Shown: piece by piece, positions 6,753 to 51,394 of the stretch
How the letters are laid out: each line of letters starts with the position of its first letter
Position numbering within the stretch: position 1 is the first letter of the stretch
The notes under the pieces: generated by a model
What the model was told of the DNA's origin: nothing
Seen by the model: the letters and a program-made list of their open reading frames with translations, nothing else
Database searches by the model: none
Source of the DNA: Streptomyces sp. NBC_01707
GTDB lineage: Bacteria > Actinomycetota > Actinomycetes > Streptomycetales > Streptomycetaceae
Assembly: GCF_041438805.1 (NCBI RefSeq)
Contig: NZ_CP109190.1
Span: forward strand, 6,324,001 to 6,388,000
DNA: 64,000 nt
Direction of reading: 5' to 3'
Translations under genes and position numbers: made by a program

Positions 6753-7510
6753 AGAAGTTGAGCAACTCGCAGAAGAACGACGAGAAGAACGACCAGAAGA
6801 ACGACCGGACGAACGAGCGGAGGAGCAGGCTGAAGCTGATCGTCCTCGACATGGCCGGGACCACCGTCGCCGACGGCGGCCTCGTCGAGCAGGCATTCGG
6901 CGCCGCCGCGCAGCGCCTCGGCGTGGAGCCCGGCTCCGCCGACCACGCGGAGAAGCTCGACTACGTGCGCGCCACCATGGGCGAGTCCAAGATCTCCGTC
7001 TTCCGCCACCTCTTCGGCGACGAGGACCGGGCCCAGCAGGCCAACCTCGCGTTCGAGGAGGCATACGGGGAACTGGTCGCCGGCGGCCGCATCGCGCCGG
7101 TGCCCGGCGCCCGCGAGGCCATCGAGCGGCTCACGGGAGAAGGCCGGACCGTGGTCCTCTCCACCGGCTTCGCCCGCACCACCCAGGACGCGATCCTCGC
7201 CGCGCTCGGCTGGCAGGACCTGGTCGCGCTGACCCTCTGCCCCGCCGACGCGGGCGGCCGCGGCCGCCCTTACCCGGACATGGTCCTCGCCGCCTTCCTG
7301 CGCACCGGGGCGGTGGACGGCGTCCAGCAGATCGTGGTCGCGGGGGACACCTCGTACGACATGCTCAGCGGCGTACGCTCCGGGGCCGGGATCGTCGCCG
7401 GGGTGCTGACCGGCGCACACGACAAGGACCAGCTGGCACGCAACGGGGCCACGCACGTGCTCGGTTCGGTGGCCGAGCTGCCTGACCTGATCGCCCGGGC
7501 GGAAGCATGA
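6749..7510 (+). CDS. Phosphonatase-like HAD hydrolase (TIGR03351-type)
   Basis: 253 residues. HAD motif I is LDMAGTT (nucleophile D34), close to the DWAGTT of phosphonoacetaldehyde hydrolase PhnX. The cap motif MGESKISVFR keeps a lysine (K81) where PhnX has its Schiff-base lysine in MGxxK. STGFARTT (motif II) and GDTSYDMLSG (motif IV) follow. It likely cleaves the C-P bond of the aldehyde made by the upstream oxidase. Odd: the first 28 residues are a charged Asn/Lys/Asp repeat encoded by tandem AAGAACGAC units, not part of the HAD fold. The GTG at 6749 is the only start with good coupling to the upstream gene, but a start nearer 6830 (CTG after GGAGG) cannot be excluded. Confidence 0.82.
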   Translation: MKKLSNSQKNDEKNDQKNDRTNERRSRLKLIVLDMAGTTVADGGLVEQAFGAAAQRLGVEPGSADHAEKLDYVRATMGESKISVFRHLFGDEDRAQQANLAFEEAYGELVAGGRIAPVPGAREAIERLTGEGRTVVLSTGFARTTQDAILAALGWQDLVALTLCPADAGGRGRPYPDMVLAAFLRTGAVDGVQQIVVAGDTSYDMLSGVRSGAGIVAGVLTGAHDKDQLARNGATHVLGSVAELPDLIARAEA

Positions 7511-8616
7511 CCGGCACATCCGCACCCGCGGCCGTCGGTCGGACCACGCAAGCCGGCGGGATCCGTTTCGACGCAGTCAGCGTCGTGTACGGCAAAAACA
7601 CCGTCCTCGACCGGTTCGACCTGACCGTCGAACCCGGCGAGGTCATGGCGCTGCTCGGTCCCTCCGGATCCGGCAAGACCACCGCCCTGCGCGCCGTCGC
7701 CGGCTTCGTCCGGCCCGCCTCCGGGCGGGTCTGGCTGGGCGACCGCGATGTCACCGGGCTGCCGCCGCACAAGCGCGGCATCGGCATGGTCGTCCAGCAG
7801 TACGCGCTGTTCCCGCACATGCGGGTCCAGGACAACGTCGCCTTCGGCCTCAAGGCCCGCAAGGTCGCGAAGGCCGAGATCCCCGCACGGGTCGCCGAAG
7901 CCCTCGAACTCGTCGGCATGGCCGCGTACGCCAAGCGCTACCCGCGCGAACTGTCCGGCGGTCAGCAGCAGCGCGTCGCCATCGCCCGCGCGCTCGCCGT
8001 CCGCCCCGGCGTACTGCTGCTCGACGAGCCGCTCTCCGCGCTCGACGCCCGGCTGCGCTCCGGGATGCTCGCCGAACTGGCACGCCTGCACCGGGAGTTG
8101 CCGGACGTCTCCATCCTGTACGTCACCCATGACCAGGTCGAGGCGCTGACCCTCGCCGACCGGATCGCGGTCATGGACAAGGCGCGCCTGCAGGACTGCG
8201 GCACCCCGCAGGAGCTGTACCGCCGCCCGCGTACGGAGTTCACCGCGTCGTTCGTCGGCAACGCCAACCTGCTGCCGGTCACCGTCGCCGGGACCGCGGG
8301 CACCGTGGAGTTCGCCGGGCGCAGGCTCGACGTACCGACCGGCGAGGCGGCCGGCGGCGTCACGGCCACCCTCTGCGTCCGTCCCCACCTGGTCGGACTC
8401 GGCGACGGGCCCAACGCGCTGACCGGTGCCCTCGCCGAGGTCCAGTGGCGCGGCTCCACGCATCGGCTCTACGTCGACGTCGACGGCCACCGGATCAAGG
8501 CCGACCTTCGCGAACTGCGCGACACTCCGGCGCTCGGCGACCGGGTCACCCTGCACTTCGCCGCCGAGGACGCGGTGCTGCTGCCCGCGGGGGCGACAGG
8601 GGTGAACGATGGATAG
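7507..8616 (+). CDS. Phosphonate ABC transporter ATP-binding protein
   Basis: 369 residues. Walker A GPSGSGKTT (51-59), Q-loop VQQYALFPHM, signature LSGGQQQRVAIARAL, Walker B LLLDEPLSALD and the H-loop YVTHD are all intact. A TOBE domain after about residue 250 places it in the spermidine/iron/2-aminoethylphosphonate (PotA/PhnT) class. It overlaps the hydrolase by 4 bases and the first permease by 8. It energises uptake through the two permeases that follow. Confidence 0.9.
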   Translation: MTGTSAPAAVGRTTQAGGIRFDAVSVVYGKNTVLDRFDLTVEPGEVMALLGPSGSGKTTALRAVAGFVRPASGRVWLGDRDVTGLPPHKRGIGMVVQQYALFPHMRVQDNVAFGLKARKVAKAEIPARVAEALELVGMAAYAKRYPRELSGGQQQRVAIARALAVRPGVLLLDEPLSALDARLRSGMLAELARLHRELPDVSILYVTHDQVEALTLADRIAVMDKARLQDCGTPQELYRRPRTEFTASFVGNANLLPVTVAGTAGTVEFAGRRLDVPTGEAAGGVTATLCVRPHLVGLGDGPNALTGALAEVQWRGSTHRLYVDVDGHRIKADLRELRDTPALGDRVTLHFAAEDAVLLPAGATGVNDG

Positions 8617-20567: not shown

Positions 20568-20576
20568 GATTCTGCG

Positions 20577-20650
20577 TGCGCCGCCAGGGACTCGAACCCC
20601 GGACCCGCTGATTAAGAGTCAGCTGCTCTAACCAACTGAGCTAGCGGCGC
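20577..20650 (-). tRNA. tRNA-Lys (CTT), copy 1
   Basis: On the minus strand the acceptor stem GCGCCGC/GCGGCGC, a D arm AGCTCAGTTGGTTAGAGC-type loop, anticodon loop CTCTTAA (anticodon CTT) and T arm GGGGTTCGAGTCCC fold as a tRNA. CCA is not encoded. The body is identical to the copies at 28566 and 43980. Confidence 0.96.
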
Positions 20651-28560: not shown

Positions 28561-28565
28561 GTCTG

Positions 28566-28639
28566 TGCGCCGCCAGGGACTCGAACCCCGGACCCGCTGA
28601 TTAAGAGTCAGCTGCTCTAACCAACTGAGCTAGCGGCGC
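28566..28639 (-). tRNA. tRNA-Lys (CTT), copy 2
   Basis: Identical in sequence to the copy at 20577-20650, with the same CTT anticodon loop and no encoded CCA. The nine bases upstream of the 5' end (GTCAGCAGG on the coding strand) are also shared by all three copies. Confidence 0.96.
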
Positions 28640-40098: not shown

Positions 40099-40158
40099 GG
40101 GTTGGGCGGGTTCGTCCGCCTGACCGCTTTGTCCTCAAGCGCCGGACGGGCTGACAAG

Positions 40159-40302
40159 TGCCCTCAAGCGCCGGGCGGGCTTGGTTTTGGTGGGCGGGCT
40201 CGCAGGTGCCCTCAAGCGCCGGGCGGGCTTGGTTTTGGTGGGCGGGCTCGCAGGTGCCCTCAAGCGCCGGGCGGGCTTGGTTTTGGTGGGCGGGCTCGAT
40301 GT
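40159..40302. repeat. Three tandem copies of a 48-bp repeat
   Basis: A 48-bp unit (starting TGCCCTCAAGCGCCGGGCGG) is repeated at 40159-40206, 40207-40254 and 40255-about 40302. A degenerate partial copy (CTCAAGCGCCGGACGGGC) precedes it at 40134. The units touch without spacers, so this is not a CRISPR array. It lies between two converging genes. Confidence 0.9.
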
Positions 40303-43973: not shown

Positions 43974-43979
43974 CGTCTG

Positions 43980-44053
43980 TGCGCCGCCAGGGACTCGAAC
44001 CCCGGACCCGCTGATTAAGAGTCAGCTGCTCTAACCAACTGAGCTAGCGGCGC
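43980..44053 (-). tRNA. tRNA-Lys (CTT), copy 3
   Basis: Identical to copies 1 and 2. Its 5' end overlaps the last ten bases of the upstream gene on the same strand: the TAG stop of that gene (44044-44046) is also bases 8-10 of the tRNA. Confidence 0.96.
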
Positions 44054-45477: not shown

Positions 45478-45552
45478 GCCACGGCGCCACGGCGCCACGG
45501 CGCCACGGCGCCACGGCGCCACGGCGCCACGGCGCCACGGCGCCACGGCGCC
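45478..45552. repeat. Octamer microsatellite (GCCACGGC) x 9
   Basis: Nine perfect tandem copies of GCCACGGC run from 45478 to 45549 and end in a partial copy. Degenerate GCGCCCGG units continue to about 45575. The rest of the 314-base gap (45279-45592) holds no supported gene. Confidence 0.9.
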
Positions 45553-45592
45553 CGGGCGCCCGGGCGCCACAGCGCCCGCCGCACCGGCGACG

Positions 45593-46927
45593 TCACGGCG
45601 CCCAGCGCACCCGGTGTTCCGCGAGATGTGCCAGGACCGCGTGGTTCGCCTCCCAGCCGTCGGGAAACTTCACCGTGACACCCAGCTGGACCGGTTCCGT
45701 CGACGGATGTTCGTCCAGCAGGTCGGCGACGCCTTCGCGGCAGACCACGATGCAGGCATGGCGGTGCCGCGAGGCCAGGACGCACAGCCGGCCCGTCTCC
45801 AGGTGGAACGCCGTGGCGTCCGGGCGGCCGGACAGCGGGTGCAGGACCACCGTCACATCGAATTCGCGGCCCTGGAGCCGGTTCGCCGTGTCCACCGCCA
45901 CACCCGTCACACCGAGCTCCGCGAGCGCGGCTCGTACCGCCGCGGCCTGATCCCGGTGGGCGGTGCCGACCGCGACCCGGTCCGCCGTCACCGCGGCGGG
46001 CTCGGGGGAGCGCTCGCTCGTCGCCGCACCGCCCCGGTCCAGCAGACGGCGCACCACCAGGGCCACCGCCCGCACCGCCTCCGGATCCGTGCGCGGGGTG
46101 TGCCGGGCCGGAAGTTCGAGCAGGCCCCAGCCGGATTCCGCGGCCTCGTCCAGCACCCGGTCCGGGGCGGAGCCGTCCGACGCGACACCGAACGACAACC
46201 GCCGGTCGCCGTGGTCCGTGCCGCTGCGGAACGGGGTGTACGGGTAGAACGCGTCCGAGACCAGCGGCGCCGCCGACGCGGGCAGCCGCCAGGACACCGG
46301 CAGCCGGTGCTGCGGCAACTGCGGGTTGTGCGCCAGCAGGGTGGAGACCGCGCTCGCCGACGGGTCGTACGACAACCCCGCCCACTGGTCCGCGCCGACG
46401 ATCGAGAACGGGTCCAGCTGGCCGGGATCGCCGACGAACAGTGCCCGTTCGAAGAGCCCGGCGACGGCCAGCAGCGCGTCCGAGCGCATCTGGTACGCCT
46501 CGTCGACGATCGCGTGCCCCCACGGCTCGACGTTCTTCACATGCGCCCACTTGGCGGCCGTCGAGATGACGACGTCAAGTCCGGCGAGGTCCGCCGCCTT
46601 TGCCGATTTCCGTACGTTGGCCAGGCCGTCCAGCACCTTGTCGTACGGGTCCGAGTCATTGCTGTGCAGTCTTCCGACCGGCAGCCCCGGGTCCTTCTCG
46701 GCCAGCCGCACCACCAGGTCGTCGACCTGGGCGTTGGTCTGTGCGACCACCATCAACGGGCGCCCGGCGGCTGCCAGTTCGAGGGCGGCGCGCACCACGA
46801 GCGTCGACTTGCCCGCGCCCGGCGGGGAGTCCACCACGATGCCGCGTGCCGTGCCGTGCAGCGTGTCGTCCAGGATCGCGGTGGTTGCCCGCCCCGCCGC
46901 CGCGCCCGGGTCGAATACGGCTGTCAC
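45593..46927 (-). CDS. SF1 helicase / AAA ATPase, Dna2-UPF1-like
   Basis: 444 residues, one helicase core. Motif I SPPGAGKST (K40), motif Ia VVAQTNAQVDDL, motif II IVDEAYQM (D142-E143), motif III FVGDPGQLDPF, motif IV-like PVSWRLPAS, motif V TANRLQGREFDVTVV and motif VI LCVLASRHRHACIVV. The lack of long insertions and the VxTxNxLQGxE form point to the UPF1/Dna2 side of SF1. It overlaps the 535-residue gene by 4 bases and ends an operon headed by an Fe-S nuclease. With that nuclease it would make a two-subunit Dna2-type machine. Confidence 0.8.
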   Translation of the reverse strand: MTAVFDPGAAAGRATTAILDDTLHGTARGIVVDSPPGAGKSTLVVRAALELAAAGRPLMVVAQTNAQVDDLVVRLAEKDPGLPVGRLHSNDSDPYDKVLDGLANVRKSAKAADLAGLDVVISTAAKWAHVKNVEPWGHAIVDEAYQMRSDALLAVAGLFERALFVGDPGQLDPFSIVGADQWAGLSYDPSASAVSTLLAHNPQLPQHRLPVSWRLPASAAPLVSDAFYPYTPFRSGTDHGDRRLSFGVASDGSAPDRVLDEAAESGWGLLELPARHTPRTDPEAVRAVALVVRRLLDRGGAATSERSPEPAAVTADRVAVGTAHRDQAAAVRAALAELGVTGVAVDTANRLQGREFDVTVVLHPLSGRPDATAFHLETGRLCVLASRHRHACIVVCREGVADLLDEHPSTEPVQLGVTVKFPDGWEANHAVLAHLAEHRVRWAP

Positions 46928-48531
46928 AGAAGGTCCTCCGCGGTCACGGGGTCAGGGTTCTCGGCGGCGGCGCCCGGCGGACCGCCGTGCGTCCAAGGGG
47001 TGTCCTCCGGGTCCGGCAGCTTCGGACCGCCGCGCTGGTCGTGCTCGAACAGCGTCCACGCGATCCGGTCGCCGGGCTCCGGCAGCGAACCCGGGGCCGG
47101 CTCCTTGCTCCGGCCCATCCGGTCGGTGATCCGCAGCACGAGCAGGGCCTCGTCCGGTCCTGCGGAGTCCTCGGAGGCGTACGCCACGAACTCGGCGGTC
47201 TGCGGCCTGCCGTCCAGCGAGCGGTACACCTTCGTCCGCTCACCGAGATGCGGGCGCTCATCGGTCCGGACCGTGACCAGCGGGCGCGGCGACGGCCGCT
47301 TCGACTCGCTGTACGCCATCACCACCTCCGTCACCTCCCCGACGAACGCCTCGCCGGCCAGCCGCCGCCCGGCCAGCACCAGCGGATCGTCCAGCGCCTC
47401 CTGGGCCTCCAGCTGCGCCTGCGCCGTCTCGCGGGACGCCAGCTTCTGGGCTGCCGTCACCGCGTCGTCCCGGCGTGGCTGCGGCGGCTCCCCGGACCGC
47501 ACCCGGTCCCGGTGGCCGGTGAACGACCAGCGGTCCCGGGTCCAGCGGTCCTCGGCCCTGGATCCGGGCGGCAGCTGCGCCATCAGGTCCAGGCCCCGCC
47601 ACACCGCATCCCAGGTCGGCCGCAGCACGCCGGCGAGCAGCGATCCGATCTCCCGTTCGGCCGCTGTCAGTTCGGCGAGCCGGGCGTCGGCCGCGAGCCC
47701 GTCCTCGGCCGCCGCGAGTGCCGTGCGCGCCCGGTCGTACTTCTCGATCGCCGGTGCGAGCAGCCGGTTGTCGAACGCCGGGTCCGTGGCCGGACCGGCC
47801 GGCGGGCACACCAGCCGGCCGCTGTCGTCCCGCTCCAGCTCGGCCCGGAGCGCGGCCTCGGCGCCGGACTCGCCCGCCGGAGGGTCGATCCAGGCGAGCA
47901 GAGCCCCCAGATGCTGGTCCTCCAGCGTGGACTGTCCGCTCGCCCAGTGCCGGTTCAGCAGATCGGTCGCGGCGAGGAGCAGCGAGGAGCCCGGCACCCG
48001 CGCCCGCTCCCCGTAGTGCGTCAGCCAGCGGCCGAGCAGTGGGACACGGGCCGGGGCGGGGTACGGGGTGTCCGGATCGTCCTCGGCGGTGCGCCGGAAC
48101 CGCATGGAACGGCCCAGCAGCCGTACGAAGTCGATACCCGCCCGGCTCGGCACGATCAACTGCGGCGCATCCGTGCACAGTTCGACCTCGACCTTGACCT
48201 TCTTGCCGGTCTCGGGATCGGTCTCGTTGCGCTCGGCCGGCTCGACCACGTCCGCGTACGACTCGATGTGCGGCAGGACAGCCTCGGCCAGGTCGGCGAG
48301 GAACGCGAACCGCAGGTCACGGTCGCGCGGCTGGGCCACGGTCAGCAGCCGCGGCGCGTCCCGGTCGGTTCCCACGAGCGCGCCGAGCGGGGCGCCCGCC
48401 TCACCGGCGGTGGTCAGCGGTACGAGGACGAGCGGCCGGCCGGTGAGATGGCGATGCCGAACGGTGGCCATCGGCTGCGCCCGGCCGCTCTCCACGGCCT
48501 CGAGCCGGGCCAGGGTGCTGATCAGCGACAT
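46924..48531 (-). CDS. Unknown 535-residue protein between Fe-S nuclease and SF1 helicase
   Basis: 535 residues, cytoplasmic, rich in Arg/Asp/Glu. It starts MSLISTLARLEAVESGRAQP. A coiled-coil-like stretch of about 270-310 (TALAAAEDGLAADARLAELT) sits mid-protein, and the C-terminal third has beta-type segments (EVTEVVMAYSESKRP, RPHLGERTKVYRSLDG). I do not recognise a family or any nuclease or ATPase motif. Overlaps of 4 bases with the helicase and 10 with the nuclease argue for co-translation and a shared complex. A loader or scaffold role is a guess. Confidence 0.6.
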   Translation of the reverse strand: MSLISTLARLEAVESGRAQPMATVRHRHLTGRPLVLVPLTTAGEAGAPLGALVGTDRDAPRLLTVAQPRDRDLRFAFLADLAEAVLPHIESYADVVEPAERNETDPETGKKVKVEVELCTDAPQLIVPSRAGIDFVRLLGRSMRFRRTAEDDPDTPYPAPARVPLLGRWLTHYGERARVPGSSLLLAATDLLNRHWASGQSTLEDQHLGALLAWIDPPAGESGAEAALRAELERDDSGRLVCPPAGPATDPAFDNRLLAPAIEKYDRARTALAAAEDGLAADARLAELTAAEREIGSLLAGVLRPTWDAVWRGLDLMAQLPPGSRAEDRWTRDRWSFTGHRDRVRSGEPPQPRRDDAVTAAQKLASRETAQAQLEAQEALDDPLVLAGRRLAGEAFVGEVTEVVMAYSESKRPSPRPLVTVRTDERPHLGERTKVYRSLDGRPQTAEFVAYASEDSAGPDEALLVLRITDRMGRSKEPAPGSLPEPGDRIAWTLFEHDQRGGPKLPDPEDTPWTHGGPPGAAAENPDPVTAEDLL

Positions 48532-49721
48532 ACCGTTCCGCCCTCCGGAGCCGCCGGGCCGGGCACTCTTTCCAGCGCCTCCGCGCGCAGGGCCGCCGCG
48601 CGGCGCAGGGCCGCGACCGTCGGATCCGCCGGGTCGCCCTCCTTGCCCGCAGCCGCGGCCAGTACCTCGGTGACCGTCGTCAGACCTCCGAGCTCGCCCC
48701 GGACGCTCCGGCCCAGCGCCTGCACCGCACCGGCCGAGCGCGCCTTCGCCCGGCAGTGGAAGGCCAGTTCGCAGGCGGCCAGGCACTCGGGTGCGTACAT
48801 CGCCGCGACCGATTCGACCGCGGCCGTCAGCTCCTGCGGCGAACACTCAGGGTCGAAGGTGGTGCCCTCGGGCAGGGCGGCCGCGATCTCCTCGATCCGG
48901 GTCAGCCGGGTCAGCTGACGGCGGGTGACCGCACGCTGCTTGCGCACATCCACCACCGACGCCGTCGGGAGATTGGAGAAGTCCTTCGGGCAGACCAGCA
49001 GCACCCGGTGGCCGACCTCCGCACCCTGTGTGACCGCCGCGATCCGCTCCAGCGCCAGGACGTACACCGCGGACTGCCGGGCCGCCGCGCCGACCTTCGC
49101 GGCGTCCGCGGAACTGTCGATCATGGGGAACGACTTGATCTCCACAACCGTCCACCGGCCGTCGGGGTGCACGACCACCGCGTCCGGCTCCAGATAGGCG
49201 GGCGAGCCCGCCACCTCCAGGGCCAGCATCGGATGGTCGAGCAGCGCCCAGCCGCCCGCCCCCGTCGCCTCCCGCAGCGCCAGCGCCGTACGGGCCGCGC
49301 GCCCCTCGGGACCGGCCGCCGTCAGATCCGGTACCAGGACCTCGCGCGGTGCCTCACTGCCGCCGCCGAGCCGCTCGTGCAGCAGCCGCATCAGCTCCGT
49401 ACCGCCGTCGGCCTTGACCTTCGCCTCGAATGCGTTGCCCCGCATGAACGCGAACTGCGACTGGCCGAACGCGGCGGGGGAGCCGAGCGCCGTCGCCAGC
49501 GCGGCCTTGTCCACCCCGGCACCGTCCAGCAGGGCGCGTCGCTTGCAGCCGGGGTTCGCGGCAAGGGCGGCCAGCGCGCGGGCATCGAGCGGATGCGGGG
49601 CGACGGCCGGACCGCGCAGCTCAGCGAGCCGCTGCCGGAGCGCCGTCGTCTGCGGCGTCGCCCGATGCTGCGTCGTCGGTGGAGTCTGCGGAGGAGGTCC
49701 GCTGGCCGGGGATTCGCTCAC
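48522..49721 (-). CDS. PD-(D/E)XK nuclease with a probable 4Fe-4S cluster (Cas4/Dna2/AddB type)
   Basis: 399 residues from GTG 49721. The nuclease core is complete: RGNAFEAKV (E99), LEPDAVVV (D180), VVEIKSF (E194, K196) and the QxxxY motif RQSAVYVL. The cluster Cys are one upstream (NPGCKRR, C59) and three downstream spaced C-x3-C-x5-C (C313, C317, C323, in PECLAACELAFHC). AddB, Dna2 and Exo V show one plus C-x2-C-x5-C. The start is uncertain: the only candidate codons upstream of C59 lie inside the previous gene, which forces an overlap of about 100 bases with it. Function: DNA end or flap processing, or defence. Confidence 0.78.
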   Translation of the reverse strand: MSESPASGPPPQTPPTTQHRATPQTTALRQRLAELRGPAVAPHPLDARALAALAANPGCKRRALLDGAGVDKAALATALGSPAAFGQSQFAFMRGNAFEAKVKADGGTELMRLLHERLGGGSEAPREVLVPDLTAAGPEGRAARTALALREATGAGGWALLDHPMLALEVAGSPAYLEPDAVVVHPDGRWTVVEIKSFPMIDSSADAAKVGAAARQSAVYVLALERIAAVTQGAEVGHRVLLVCPKDFSNLPTASVVDVRKQRAVTRRQLTRLTRIEEIAAALPEGTTFDPECSPQELTAAVESVAAMYAPECLAACELAFHCRAKARSAGAVQALGRSVRGELGGLTTVTEVLAAAAGKEGDPADPTVAALRRAAALRAEALERVPGPAAPEGGTVCR

Positions 49722-50550
49722 CCGCGGAAGTCTTGCATCCGGCACTGACAATCGGGGACTTCGTGGCCGGATCGGCCGGTGCGAACCGGGCCTGTACCGC
49801 GGCCCGCACCCGGTCCGCGAGCTGCACGACCGGCCCGGTCAGCAGCGCTCCGACGGTCATGACGGCGGCGCCCGCGACCGCGTCGAGGAAGTAGTGGTTG
49901 GCCGTGCCCATCACGACGATCGTGGTGACCAGTGGGTACACGACGCCCGCGACGCGTACCAGCGGGTGCCGCGCGTGACGCCAGAGCAGGACCCCGCACC
50001 ACAGCGCCCAGCCGACGTGCAGACTCGGCATCGCGGCGTACTGGTTGGTCATCCAGCCCATCCCGCGCGGCGCGCTCGCCTCGGTGCCCCACCAGCCGTA
50101 CGAGCTGTACTGGGCCATCGTGTCGACGAAGCCGTGCGTGGCGTGCAGCAGCCGCGGCGGGCAGGTCGGCAGCAGCGCGAAGCCGATCAGGCCGAGCAGT
50201 GTGGAGGTCATCAACCAGGTGCGGGCGGTGCGGTACACGGCGGCGCGGCGCCGGTAGATCCAGATCAGGACGGCCGGGGTGACGAGGTAGTGCAGCGAGG
50301 CGTAGGCGAAGTCGGCGGGTATGCCGATGGACGGGTGGGCGGTCATCAGCCGGTTGAGCGGGTGCTCGGCGTTGAGGAAGAGGGTCTTCTCCAGATGTAG
50401 TATCCGCAGCCCGTGGTCCACAGCGGTCGACACGTCGCTGCGAACCAGCAGCCGGCCCGCCGAGTAGACCGCGTATATGACCGCGATCAGCGGCAGCTCG
50501 GCCCACCAGCGAGGCCGGTGGCTCGGCGCGGGCGCGGTGGCAAGCGGCAT
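49621..50550 (-). CDS. PAP2-family phosphatase (inositol-phosphorylceramide-synthase-like)
   Basis: 309 residues from ATG 50550 (GGAGAG 8 bases upstream). Six membrane helices. The PAP2 signature is partly visible: MPSLHVGWALWCGVLLWR and ANHYFLDAVAGAAV (catalytic His and Asp). The C-terminal 50 residues are disordered (TSSADSTDDAASGDAADDG), and they overlap the start of the nuclease gene by 101 bases on the same strand in another frame. It likely acts on a lipid phosphate at the membrane. ATG 50565 or 50568 is also possible. Confidence 0.8.
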   Translation of the reverse strand: MPLATAPAPSHRPRWWAELPLIAVIYAVYSAGRLLVRSDVSTAVDHGLRILHLEKTLFLNAEHPLNRLMTAHPSIGIPADFAYASLHYLVTPAVLIWIYRRRAAVYRTARTWLMTSTLLGLIGFALLPTCPPRLLHATHGFVDTMAQYSSYGWWGTEASAPRGMGWMTNQYAAMPSLHVGWALWCGVLLWRHARHPLVRVAGVVYPLVTTIVVMGTANHYFLDAVAGAAVMTVGALLTGPVVQLADRVRAAVQARFAPADPATKSPIVSAGCKTSAGERIPGQRTSSADSTDDAASGDAADDGAPAAAR

Positions 50551-50797
50551 TCGGAAGCTCTCCATCATGTGTTCATGCGACCGAGGGCGGCCGTTCAACC
50601 GTACGGCGCAGATCGGCCGTGTTTTCCCCGGGGGTACCCCTGCGGATGCCCCGGTTCGTACGGAGATTTCTCCGCGGGGAAGGGGACGCCTGTTCGGCCC
50701 CGGAGGTTGCCTGCCGGACACGTGAGCGATGATGGAAAAGGCGGAGCACCCGTCCCTGTTGTCGTTTTCTCCGAACCAAGATTCAGGGAGAGCCGTC

Positions 50798-51394
50798 ATG
50801 GCACCGCGTATCCTGCTCGCCCGGCACGGCCAGACGGAATGGTCCGTCAAGGGCAATCACACCGGCAGGACCGACATTCCTCTGCTCGACACCGGCCGCG
50901 CGGGCGCCAAGCTGCTGGGCGAGCGGCTGCACCGCGGACCGTGGGCGGACCTGCCGGGCCTGGAGGTCCGCACCAGTCCGCTCGTCCGCGCCAGGGAGAC
51001 CTGCGACATCGCGGGCTTCGCCGACCGGGCGCAGCCGTGGGACGTGCTCATGGAGTGGGACTACGGGGCGTACGAGGGCATGACACCGGCCGAGATCCAG
51101 GCGGTCCGGCCGGGCTGGTTCATCTGGCGCGACGGGGTTCCGGACGGCGAGACCCTGTCCGAGTTGTCCGCCCGTGCGGACGAGATCGTCGACTGGGCGC
51201 GCTCGGCCGAACGTGACGTGCTGGTCTTCGCGCACGGTCACATCCTGCGGGCGCTGGGGGCGCGCTGGCTGGGCGAGGACGTGTCGTTCGCGTCGCGCAT
51301 CCGCCTGGACCCGACGTCGCTATCGGTGCTCGGATGGGCATATGGGGCACCGGCCCTCGAACGCTGGAACGACACGGGCCATTTGGACCGGTGA
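50798..51394 (+). CDS. Histidine phosphatase (phosphoglycerate-mutase-like)
   Basis: 198 residues. RHG motif [10 protein letters not shown] at the start and FAHGHILR near the end give the two catalytic His; [10 protein letters not shown] is the usual helix. GGGAGAG precedes ATG 50798. It probably removes phosphate from a small metabolite or protein; the substrate is unknown. Divergent from the PAP2 gene. Confidence 0.88.

Follow-up and report, generated by a model that had tools for sequence, protein, structure and literature searches.

Introduction

What is made by three overlapping genes of Streptomyces sp. NBC_01707 that encode, in order, a nuclease-like protein, a companion protein of no known family and a helicase? 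The genes lie in a 64,000-nucleotide stretch of this genome (contig NZ_CP109190.1, positions 6,324,001 to 6,388,000; hereafter the window, whose own numbering is used for its features), and a likely helicase-nuclease of this kind was found in 142 of the 150 Streptomyces species sampled. We favor, with a probability of roughly 0.55, a split helicase-nuclease that acts on DNA like Dna2 or AddAB and that exists as one fixed core copy and as mobile copies in defense islands. The genes are co-inherited and often overlapping, with the companion dedicated to the motor; new here are a second, horizontally moving form with a fourth gene, copies of that form in defense islands, and a nuclease-free cousin. 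The gene set was not found described in the literature searched, which leaves out most subscription journals, and none of the four family libraries consulted (Pfam, NCBIfam, PADLOC, and PHROGs) holds a model made for the nuclease or the companion.

Gene layout

The three genes of the window are as follows:

48522..49721, minus strand: gene 1, nuclease of the PD-(D/E)XK type with four conserved cysteines (C59, C313, C317, C323); 399 aa; GTG start at 49721, stop at 48522.
46924..48531, minus strand: gene 2, companion ("middle") protein of no known family; 535 aa; ATG start at 48531, stop at 46924.
45593..46927, minus strand: gene 3, UPF1/Dna2-type superfamily 1 (SF1) helicase; 444 aa; GTG start at 46927, stop at 45593.

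As open reading frames (ORFs) of the window, the nuclease and companion genes overlap by 10 bases and the companion and helicase genes by 4; the GTG start of the nuclease is backed by an MSE N-terminus common to some orthologs. In six pairwise comparisons with the window, third codon positions showed 3.2–6.4 times more differences than second positions in the nuclease and companion genes, and the same ratio was 4.4–29 in the helicase gene: the three genes are under purifying selection. A gene artifact is ruled out by conservation together with this codon-position pattern. Upstream, a PAP2-type ORF (49621–50856) enters the nuclease gene by about 100 bases in another frame, and one start or stop may differ from that of the longest ORF. 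Directly 3′ of the helicase gene, and covering its last codons, is a GC-rich tandem repeat with periods of 8 and 24 (45478–45614).

Nuclease, helicase and companion proteins

The nuclease carries C59, E99, D180, E194, K196, Q216-x3-Y220, and C313-x3-C317-x5-C323. Its match to Pfam PDDEXK_1 (E = 0.016) falls under the family cut-off, and the same model is weakly matched by 10 of 26 aligned members; because of this sub-threshold score, the assignment depends on motifs together with weak profile matches. All four cysteines occur in each of 131 aligned nucleases, as do E178, D180, Q216, and Y220; the alignment consists of the full window protein and 130 distinct sequences taken from 178 loci, and Streptomyces core copies make up most of it. 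The four invariant cysteines around a PD-(D/E)XK-like domain may bind an iron-sulfur (Fe-S) cluster. Repeat matches to a pair of engineered proteins, judged spurious, were all that the nuclease profile gave in the PDB; the window nuclease itself had no match in PADLOC-DB 2.0 at E ≤ 10.

In Pfam, the helicase clears the cut-offs of AAA_11 (8.9e-11) and AAA_12 (3.1e-7). Searched as a single sequence against solved structures, it places SMUBP-2 slightly ahead of DNA2. In PADLOC-DB 2.0 it gave partial matches only, to long proteins such as MkoC (3.5e-8). Its Walker A motif lies at residues 34–42 and DEAYQ at 142, with only about 33 residues ahead of motif I. The authors of the CoCoNuT study describe, in a part of their article, a stalk-like helical extension, and an OB-fold domain with it, as typical of the whole UPF1/DNA2-like family (PMC11090510); the start of the helicase gene is too near motif I, and therefore these parts have no room in the 444-residue motor.

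A motor of this type also raises the question of substrate. UPF1-like helicases work on RNA as well as on single-stranded DNA, and CoCoNuT systems are presented in a part of PMC11090510 as pairing such a helicase with nuclease systems, with RNA or RNA-DNA hybrids as the proposed target. When the window helicase was compared as a profile with solved structures, however, DNA2 chains came out best (E = 6.6e-12). The RecB-like Fe-S nucleases that are known act on DNA, and so do SbcCD, Wadjet, and restriction-modification (R-M) systems, whose genes adjoin some relatives of the set (see below); RNA-directed action of this motor and nuclease is the least probable of the readings considered here and looks very improbable.

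The companion is distinguished by the motifs HWASGQS (195) and PWTHGGPP (512); by eye, its C-terminal segment reads as a helix followed by beta strands. It gave chance-level matches only in Pfam, none in NCBIfam, PADLOC-DB 2.0 (E ≤ 10), or PHROGs, and, as a profile, none among PDB sequences. No system-specific model of PADLOC-DB 2.0 covers any of the three window proteins.

How does the set compare with known helicase-nucleases? Dna2 has the same SF1 motor type, and the cysteine layout resembles that of Fe-S PD-(D/E)XK nucleases; Dna2 is one chain, whereas the window set is three chains that include the 535-aa companion. The domain order of Dna2 matches the gene order nuclease-middle-helicase. 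One-chain RecB-family proteins of Actinomycetota (e.g., L187, 1169 aa) also join a UPF1-type helicase to a RecB-like nuclease but differ in being single chains and in showing no detectable profile similarity in the nuclease or pre-helicase region. AddAB, AdnAB, and RecBCD likewise combine a helicase with a RecB-like nuclease; in them, a UvrD-like motor and the nuclease are fused, unlike the window motor, which is of the AAA_11/AAA_12 type and sits on a separate chain. Identity with AdnAB or AddAB was rejected on motor type and separate chains. Elsewhere in the same genome, two ORFs of 1173 and 1518 aa with PDDEXK_1 matches lie about 4 kb apart and are presumably AdnA and AdnB.

These results confirm what a sequence-only reading of the locus had observed and support its interpretation in part. 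That reading had named E99, D180, E194/K196, QxxxY, and one N-terminal and three C-terminal cysteines in the nuclease, all of which are present as named, and had staked its proposal on conservation of the cysteines, which none of the 131 nucleases lacks. Its UPF1/Dna2-type helicase agrees with the Pfam and structure matches, its third protein of 535 residues still has no family assignment, and its separation of the pair from AdnAB is upheld by the type and separateness of the motor and by the putative AdnAB genes at another locus.

Conservation and distribution of the trio

Three separate profile searches were run on the same 246 genomes of the class (helicase threshold E ≤ 1e-15). The companion was found in 38 genomes, the helicase in 38, and the nuclease in 39, and 38 genomes were identical for all three; the additional nuclease genome (G357) gave a weak match (E = 7e-7). 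The 38 comprise 21 of 22 genomes of the same genus and 17 others across four families. Their coordinates make the three genes neighbors in 35 of these genomes; in G333 they are split over two contigs, and G278 and G377 retain a helicase gene at a distance of about 36 and 49 kb from nuclease and companion. The sequence-only reading had named a conserved trio as support and would have given up its machine if the middle gene did not follow the other two; the 38 genomes with the companion are also those with the helicase.

Among 92 loci (mostly the best 80 of 454 confirmed matches, a set rich in close Streptomyces relatives that includes the window itself), 85 have a complete set of gene calls, in the order nuclease-companion-helicase on a single strand and as separate ORFs in every case; the other seven lack at least one gene call, mostly where the locus or contig ended. 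The 10-base overlap recurs in 68 of these 85 loci and the 4-base overlap in 58. A phylum sample queried with the single window companion sequence gave matches in 9 of 198 genomes, all of the same class, and in the searches whose matches were inspected the trio was seen only in Actinomycetota. Viral contigs held no relative of the companion or nuclease and one 35-residue helicase-motif match, and phage records held no match to any of the three proteins.

Two side observations concern the helicase gene: it is unlinked from the nuclease and companion genes in two genomes of one family (L172, L174), and one of the two also has a partial helicase copy with an internal stop, spanning profile positions 4–130 (G377:C4:1351887-1352258).

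The core copy in Streptomyces

Streptomyces has a fixed core copy, and in each of the three protein trees these core sequences group as a single clade. Recent paralogy within Streptomyces was rejected as the source of additional copies, since the six accessory copies included branch outside that clade in every tree. Neighborhoods were compared in 61 core loci with at least 8 kb on either side. A PAP2-type gene was found in 59 of them; a small ORF below the helicase, a histidine-phosphatase-type gene, an XRE-type regulator, and a spermidine-synthase-type gene in 60 each; a GGDEF-EAL gene in 58; a response regulator in 51; and an LLM-type gene in 50. The names are readings of the sequences; Pfam was applied to one of the relatives, that of the GGDEF-EAL gene in L171. 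Relatives of SbcC, SbcD, JetA/C/D, HmaA/B, the Ppr genes, type III R-M, a helicase with HA domains, and orf0 (the fourth gene described below) were found in none of the 61, and a part of the same accessory-island genes, also looked for in 80 loci, was found in none of those.

Such constancy invites an explanation by genome maintenance only, in which the core trio would serve, next to AdnAB, as another machine for DNA-end resection or repair, and the accessory copies would be in islands simply because these collect mobile genes. The companion is kept in 142 of the 150 genomes of the genus sample, the 61 loci share one syntenic place, and purifying selection acts on the genes, which is how maintenance genes behave; on the other hand, eight of the 150 genomes are without a match, and this explanation sits poorly with the accessory copies, all of which abut the same two kinds of partner and which have lost the nuclease active site solely next to one of them. 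We regard it as unlikely, though the most credible of the rivals to a split helicase-nuclease with core and mobile forms.

Accessory copies, a fourth gene and defense islands

A second form of the set has a fourth gene, orf0 (alignment A7; 255–291 aa), directly before the nuclease on the same strand. It occurs in 11 of the 246 class genomes and adjoins the trio in ten; the eleventh is a weak match in a trio-free genome. Thirteen accessory Streptomyces loci were examined: two on plasmid records, four that are second copies in class-sample genomes, and seven further second copies from the genus sample. The plasmid collection gave three matches, the third of which, from Nonomuraea, is a chromosome-sized record; the genus sample has 18 genomes with at least two companion matches, nine of which are in the accessory set, and some of the others may be split matches.

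Every one of the 13 accessory loci lies beside SbcCD or pPIWI-RE genes, compared with 0 of the 61 core loci. SbcD is encoded on the opposite strand in eight (L148, L149, L155, L158, L224, L226, L227, L228), seven of which also have SbcC. The pPIWI-RE genes PprPDDEXK and PprDinG occupy the opposite strand in the other five (L156, L157, L223, L225, L229), and the PIWI protein was confirmed in both of the pPIWI-RE loci inspected for it (L230, L232), out of five. Only part of the neighbors was scanned, and 8 of the 13 loci were seen to continue into a recognized defense or R-M system. Downstream of the helicase lie:

L148, L149, L228: Wadjet I.
L224: Wadjet II (JetA2/JetB2).
L156: HmaA/HmaB.
L157: type III R-M (strong methyltransferase, weak Res match).
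L225, L229: SNF2-type C3a139 match and type III methyltransferase.
L155, L158: DEAD/ResIII helicase with HA domains.

Wadjet, Hma, and type III R-M are thus neighbors of some accessory copies, not homologs of the set. The pPIWI-RE system also combines a REase-fold nuclease with a helicase, but its helicase is of the DinG type and it has a PIWI protein; the part of PMC3702460 that describes it presents a three-gene neighborhood without the window's set. Trios of other families (L147, L159–L170) had none of these partner genes within the stretches covered.

The accessory form is also mobile. Between G304 and G380, accessory genes are 95–97% identical in DNA and core genes 80–83%; the two islands (L156, L157) are 98.8% identical over 6.8 kb upstream, whereas the best match past the helicase is 17 bases, where L156 is followed by Hma and L157 by type III R-M. 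Because island identity exceeds core identity and then breaks past the helicase, the accessory set travels and recombines with different restriction cassettes. Horizontally moving copies with the fourth gene sit in defense islands, and the recurrence beside known defense genes lends contextual support to a defense role for the accessory form only.

The partner is reflected in the nuclease itself. Exactly the five pPIWI-RE-linked copies have H, L, and R in place of E99, E194, and K196 (and R in place of H163), and they keep the four cysteines, E178, D180, Q216, and Y220; as these five are close relatives, the loss was probably one event. The adjacent PprPDDEXK, as read from its sequence, keeps GxxxH-E, PD, ExK, and a C-x2-C-x5-C tail. 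Beside pPIWI-RE, cutting may thus have passed to the neighboring PprPDDEXK, or the degenerate subunit may have been kept for structure or DNA binding.

SbcCD-type copies on two plasmid records (L148, L149) and on one single-contig chromosome (L227, companion at 6766–8271) have a record end less than 15 kb away; as the record of L148 is circular, that end may not be physical. Might the set then process or protect the ends of linear chromosomes and plasmids? The companion is about 4, 13, and 7 kb from the record end in L148, L149, and L227 (complete plasmid records or a single-contig chromosome), and the action of SbcCD on hairpin telomeres is, from a part of the article, the topic of PMC12624138. 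Against this stand the circular record of L148, the position of the core copy (6.32–6.39 Mb on a contig of at least 7.77 Mb), and the finding of the set outside Streptomyces, on replicons that may or may not be linear. Replicon ends are, moreover, general hot spots for acquired genes, and we hold a role in linear-replicon biology to be improbable.

A nuclease-free cousin on actinobacterial plasmids

Plasmids of Rhodococcus, Mycobacterium, and others encode helicases that are 24–37% identical to the window helicase over 60–91% of the query. The search gave 58 records, 40 of which were listed, three of those being the set itself, and 15 loci were read: one is the one-chain nuclease-helicase L187, one (L221) is without annotation, and 13 have a stand-alone helicase. 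In 10 of these 13, the gene directly upstream of the helicase (388–448 aa) belongs to one family, A10. Profile comparison with hhalign related A10 to the window companion (95.9%, E = 5e-9, 245 columns) and the cousin helicase to the window helicase (100%, E = 1.8e-54), two unrelated control pairs scoring below 1%; plain tblastn with the window companion detects only the companion of the Euzebya cousin. In the three Arthrobacter-type loci another gene (A12) stands in divergent orientation, and its profile scored 40% against the cousin companion and 0.1% against the window companion family.

Further upstream, nine of the ten A10 loci have an AAA/MoxR or ATP-binding gene, and eight have a VWA-like gene too; the Euzebya cousin (L184) has a methyltransferase upstream instead. 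The cousin thus mostly joins companion and helicase to MoxR/AAA and VWA genes, and in the latter two it resembles MoxR-vWA ternary systems, which a part of PMC7159879 describes with other third components; neither MoxR nor VWA adjoins the window set. Neither the nuclease nor orf0 gave a tblastn match at E ≤ 0.01 in any of the 15 loci. A search of 197 class genomes with the cousin companion profile gave no match, but had no positive control and is uninformative. The companion-helicase pair looks like the constant part of the system, and the nuclease like one of its partners. As an observation in its own right, Actinomycetota plasmids carry a module, unnamed in annotations, that usually consists of a MoxR/AAA ATPase, a VWA protein, a small protein, the companion homolog, and the UPF1-type helicase (L182, L183, L184, L186, L213, L215–L217, L219, L220); L219 shows no VWA gene.

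Proposed mechanism

If the set is a split helicase-nuclease, the three proteins would form one complex in which the helicase moves along a DNA strand using ATP and feeds it to the nuclease, which, stabilized by a putative Fe-S cluster, would cut the unwound strand. The companion may supply in trans the stalk/OB part normally found ahead of motif I in UPF1/Dna2 helicases, and the gene order nuclease-companion-helicase would therefore mirror Dna2. In the mobile form, this engine would degrade DNA flagged or broken by its partner (SbcCD, pPIWI-RE, or Wadjet); in the pPIWI-RE copies its own nuclease would be non-cutting, probably a structural or DNA-binding subunit, and PprPDDEXK may cut instead. 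Most probably the core copy has the same task, whether in a fixed innate defense or in the DNA-end processing of genome maintenance.

Several observations weigh against this proposal. The companion profile showed no similarity to the pre-helicase region of one-chain nuclease-helicases, in a weak comparison in which the nuclease domains were equally unlinked, and the plasmid cousin shows that the motor pair can do without this nuclease. Around the core copy, most of the ordinary neighboring genes tested recur in 58–60 of the 61 loci, so that defense finds no support there, and the 61-locus control covered relatives of accessory-island genes only, not every defense gene. Among the accessory copies, SbcCD is not indispensable, as two of the eight SbcCD-type loci hold remnants (both genes are fragmented in L148, and L224 retains no more than the N-terminal 171 residues of SbcD), and in L223, L226, and L227 nothing was recognized downstream in the stretch examined. 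A choice between a genome-maintenance complex and a defense system had been left by the sequence-only reading: the defense half has gained support from the context of the accessory copies alone, and the core copy has gained none.

A wider version of the proposal is tentative, being somewhat less probable than the split helicase-nuclease as such. In it, a DNA-destroying engine divided into nuclease, companion, and motor would plug into interchangeable sensing and cutting partners (SbcCD, pPIWI-RE, Wadjet I and II, Hma, and type III R-M); motor and companion would be the constant core, the nuclease slot would be active, degenerate where a partner brings a nuclease, or replaced (MoxR-VWA, on plasmids), and the Streptomyces core copy would serve innate immunity. 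If the accessory form is a DNA-processing module shared by several defense systems, it would link SbcCD, pPIWI-RE, and Wadjet through one engine and suggest what finishes attacked DNA. The resistance of some Streptomyces to foreign DNA is a related question. That the active site has been lost naturally beside pPIWI-RE only makes a testable prediction on the division of labor.

Other features of the window

Three tRNA-Lys (CTT) genes lie on the minus strand of the window (20576–20650, 28565–28639, and 43979–44053), the last of them 1.5 kb past the trio. At 40147–40298, a 48-base tandem repeat (3.2 copies, 97% match) separates the LLM-type gene from the GGDEF-EAL-type gene.

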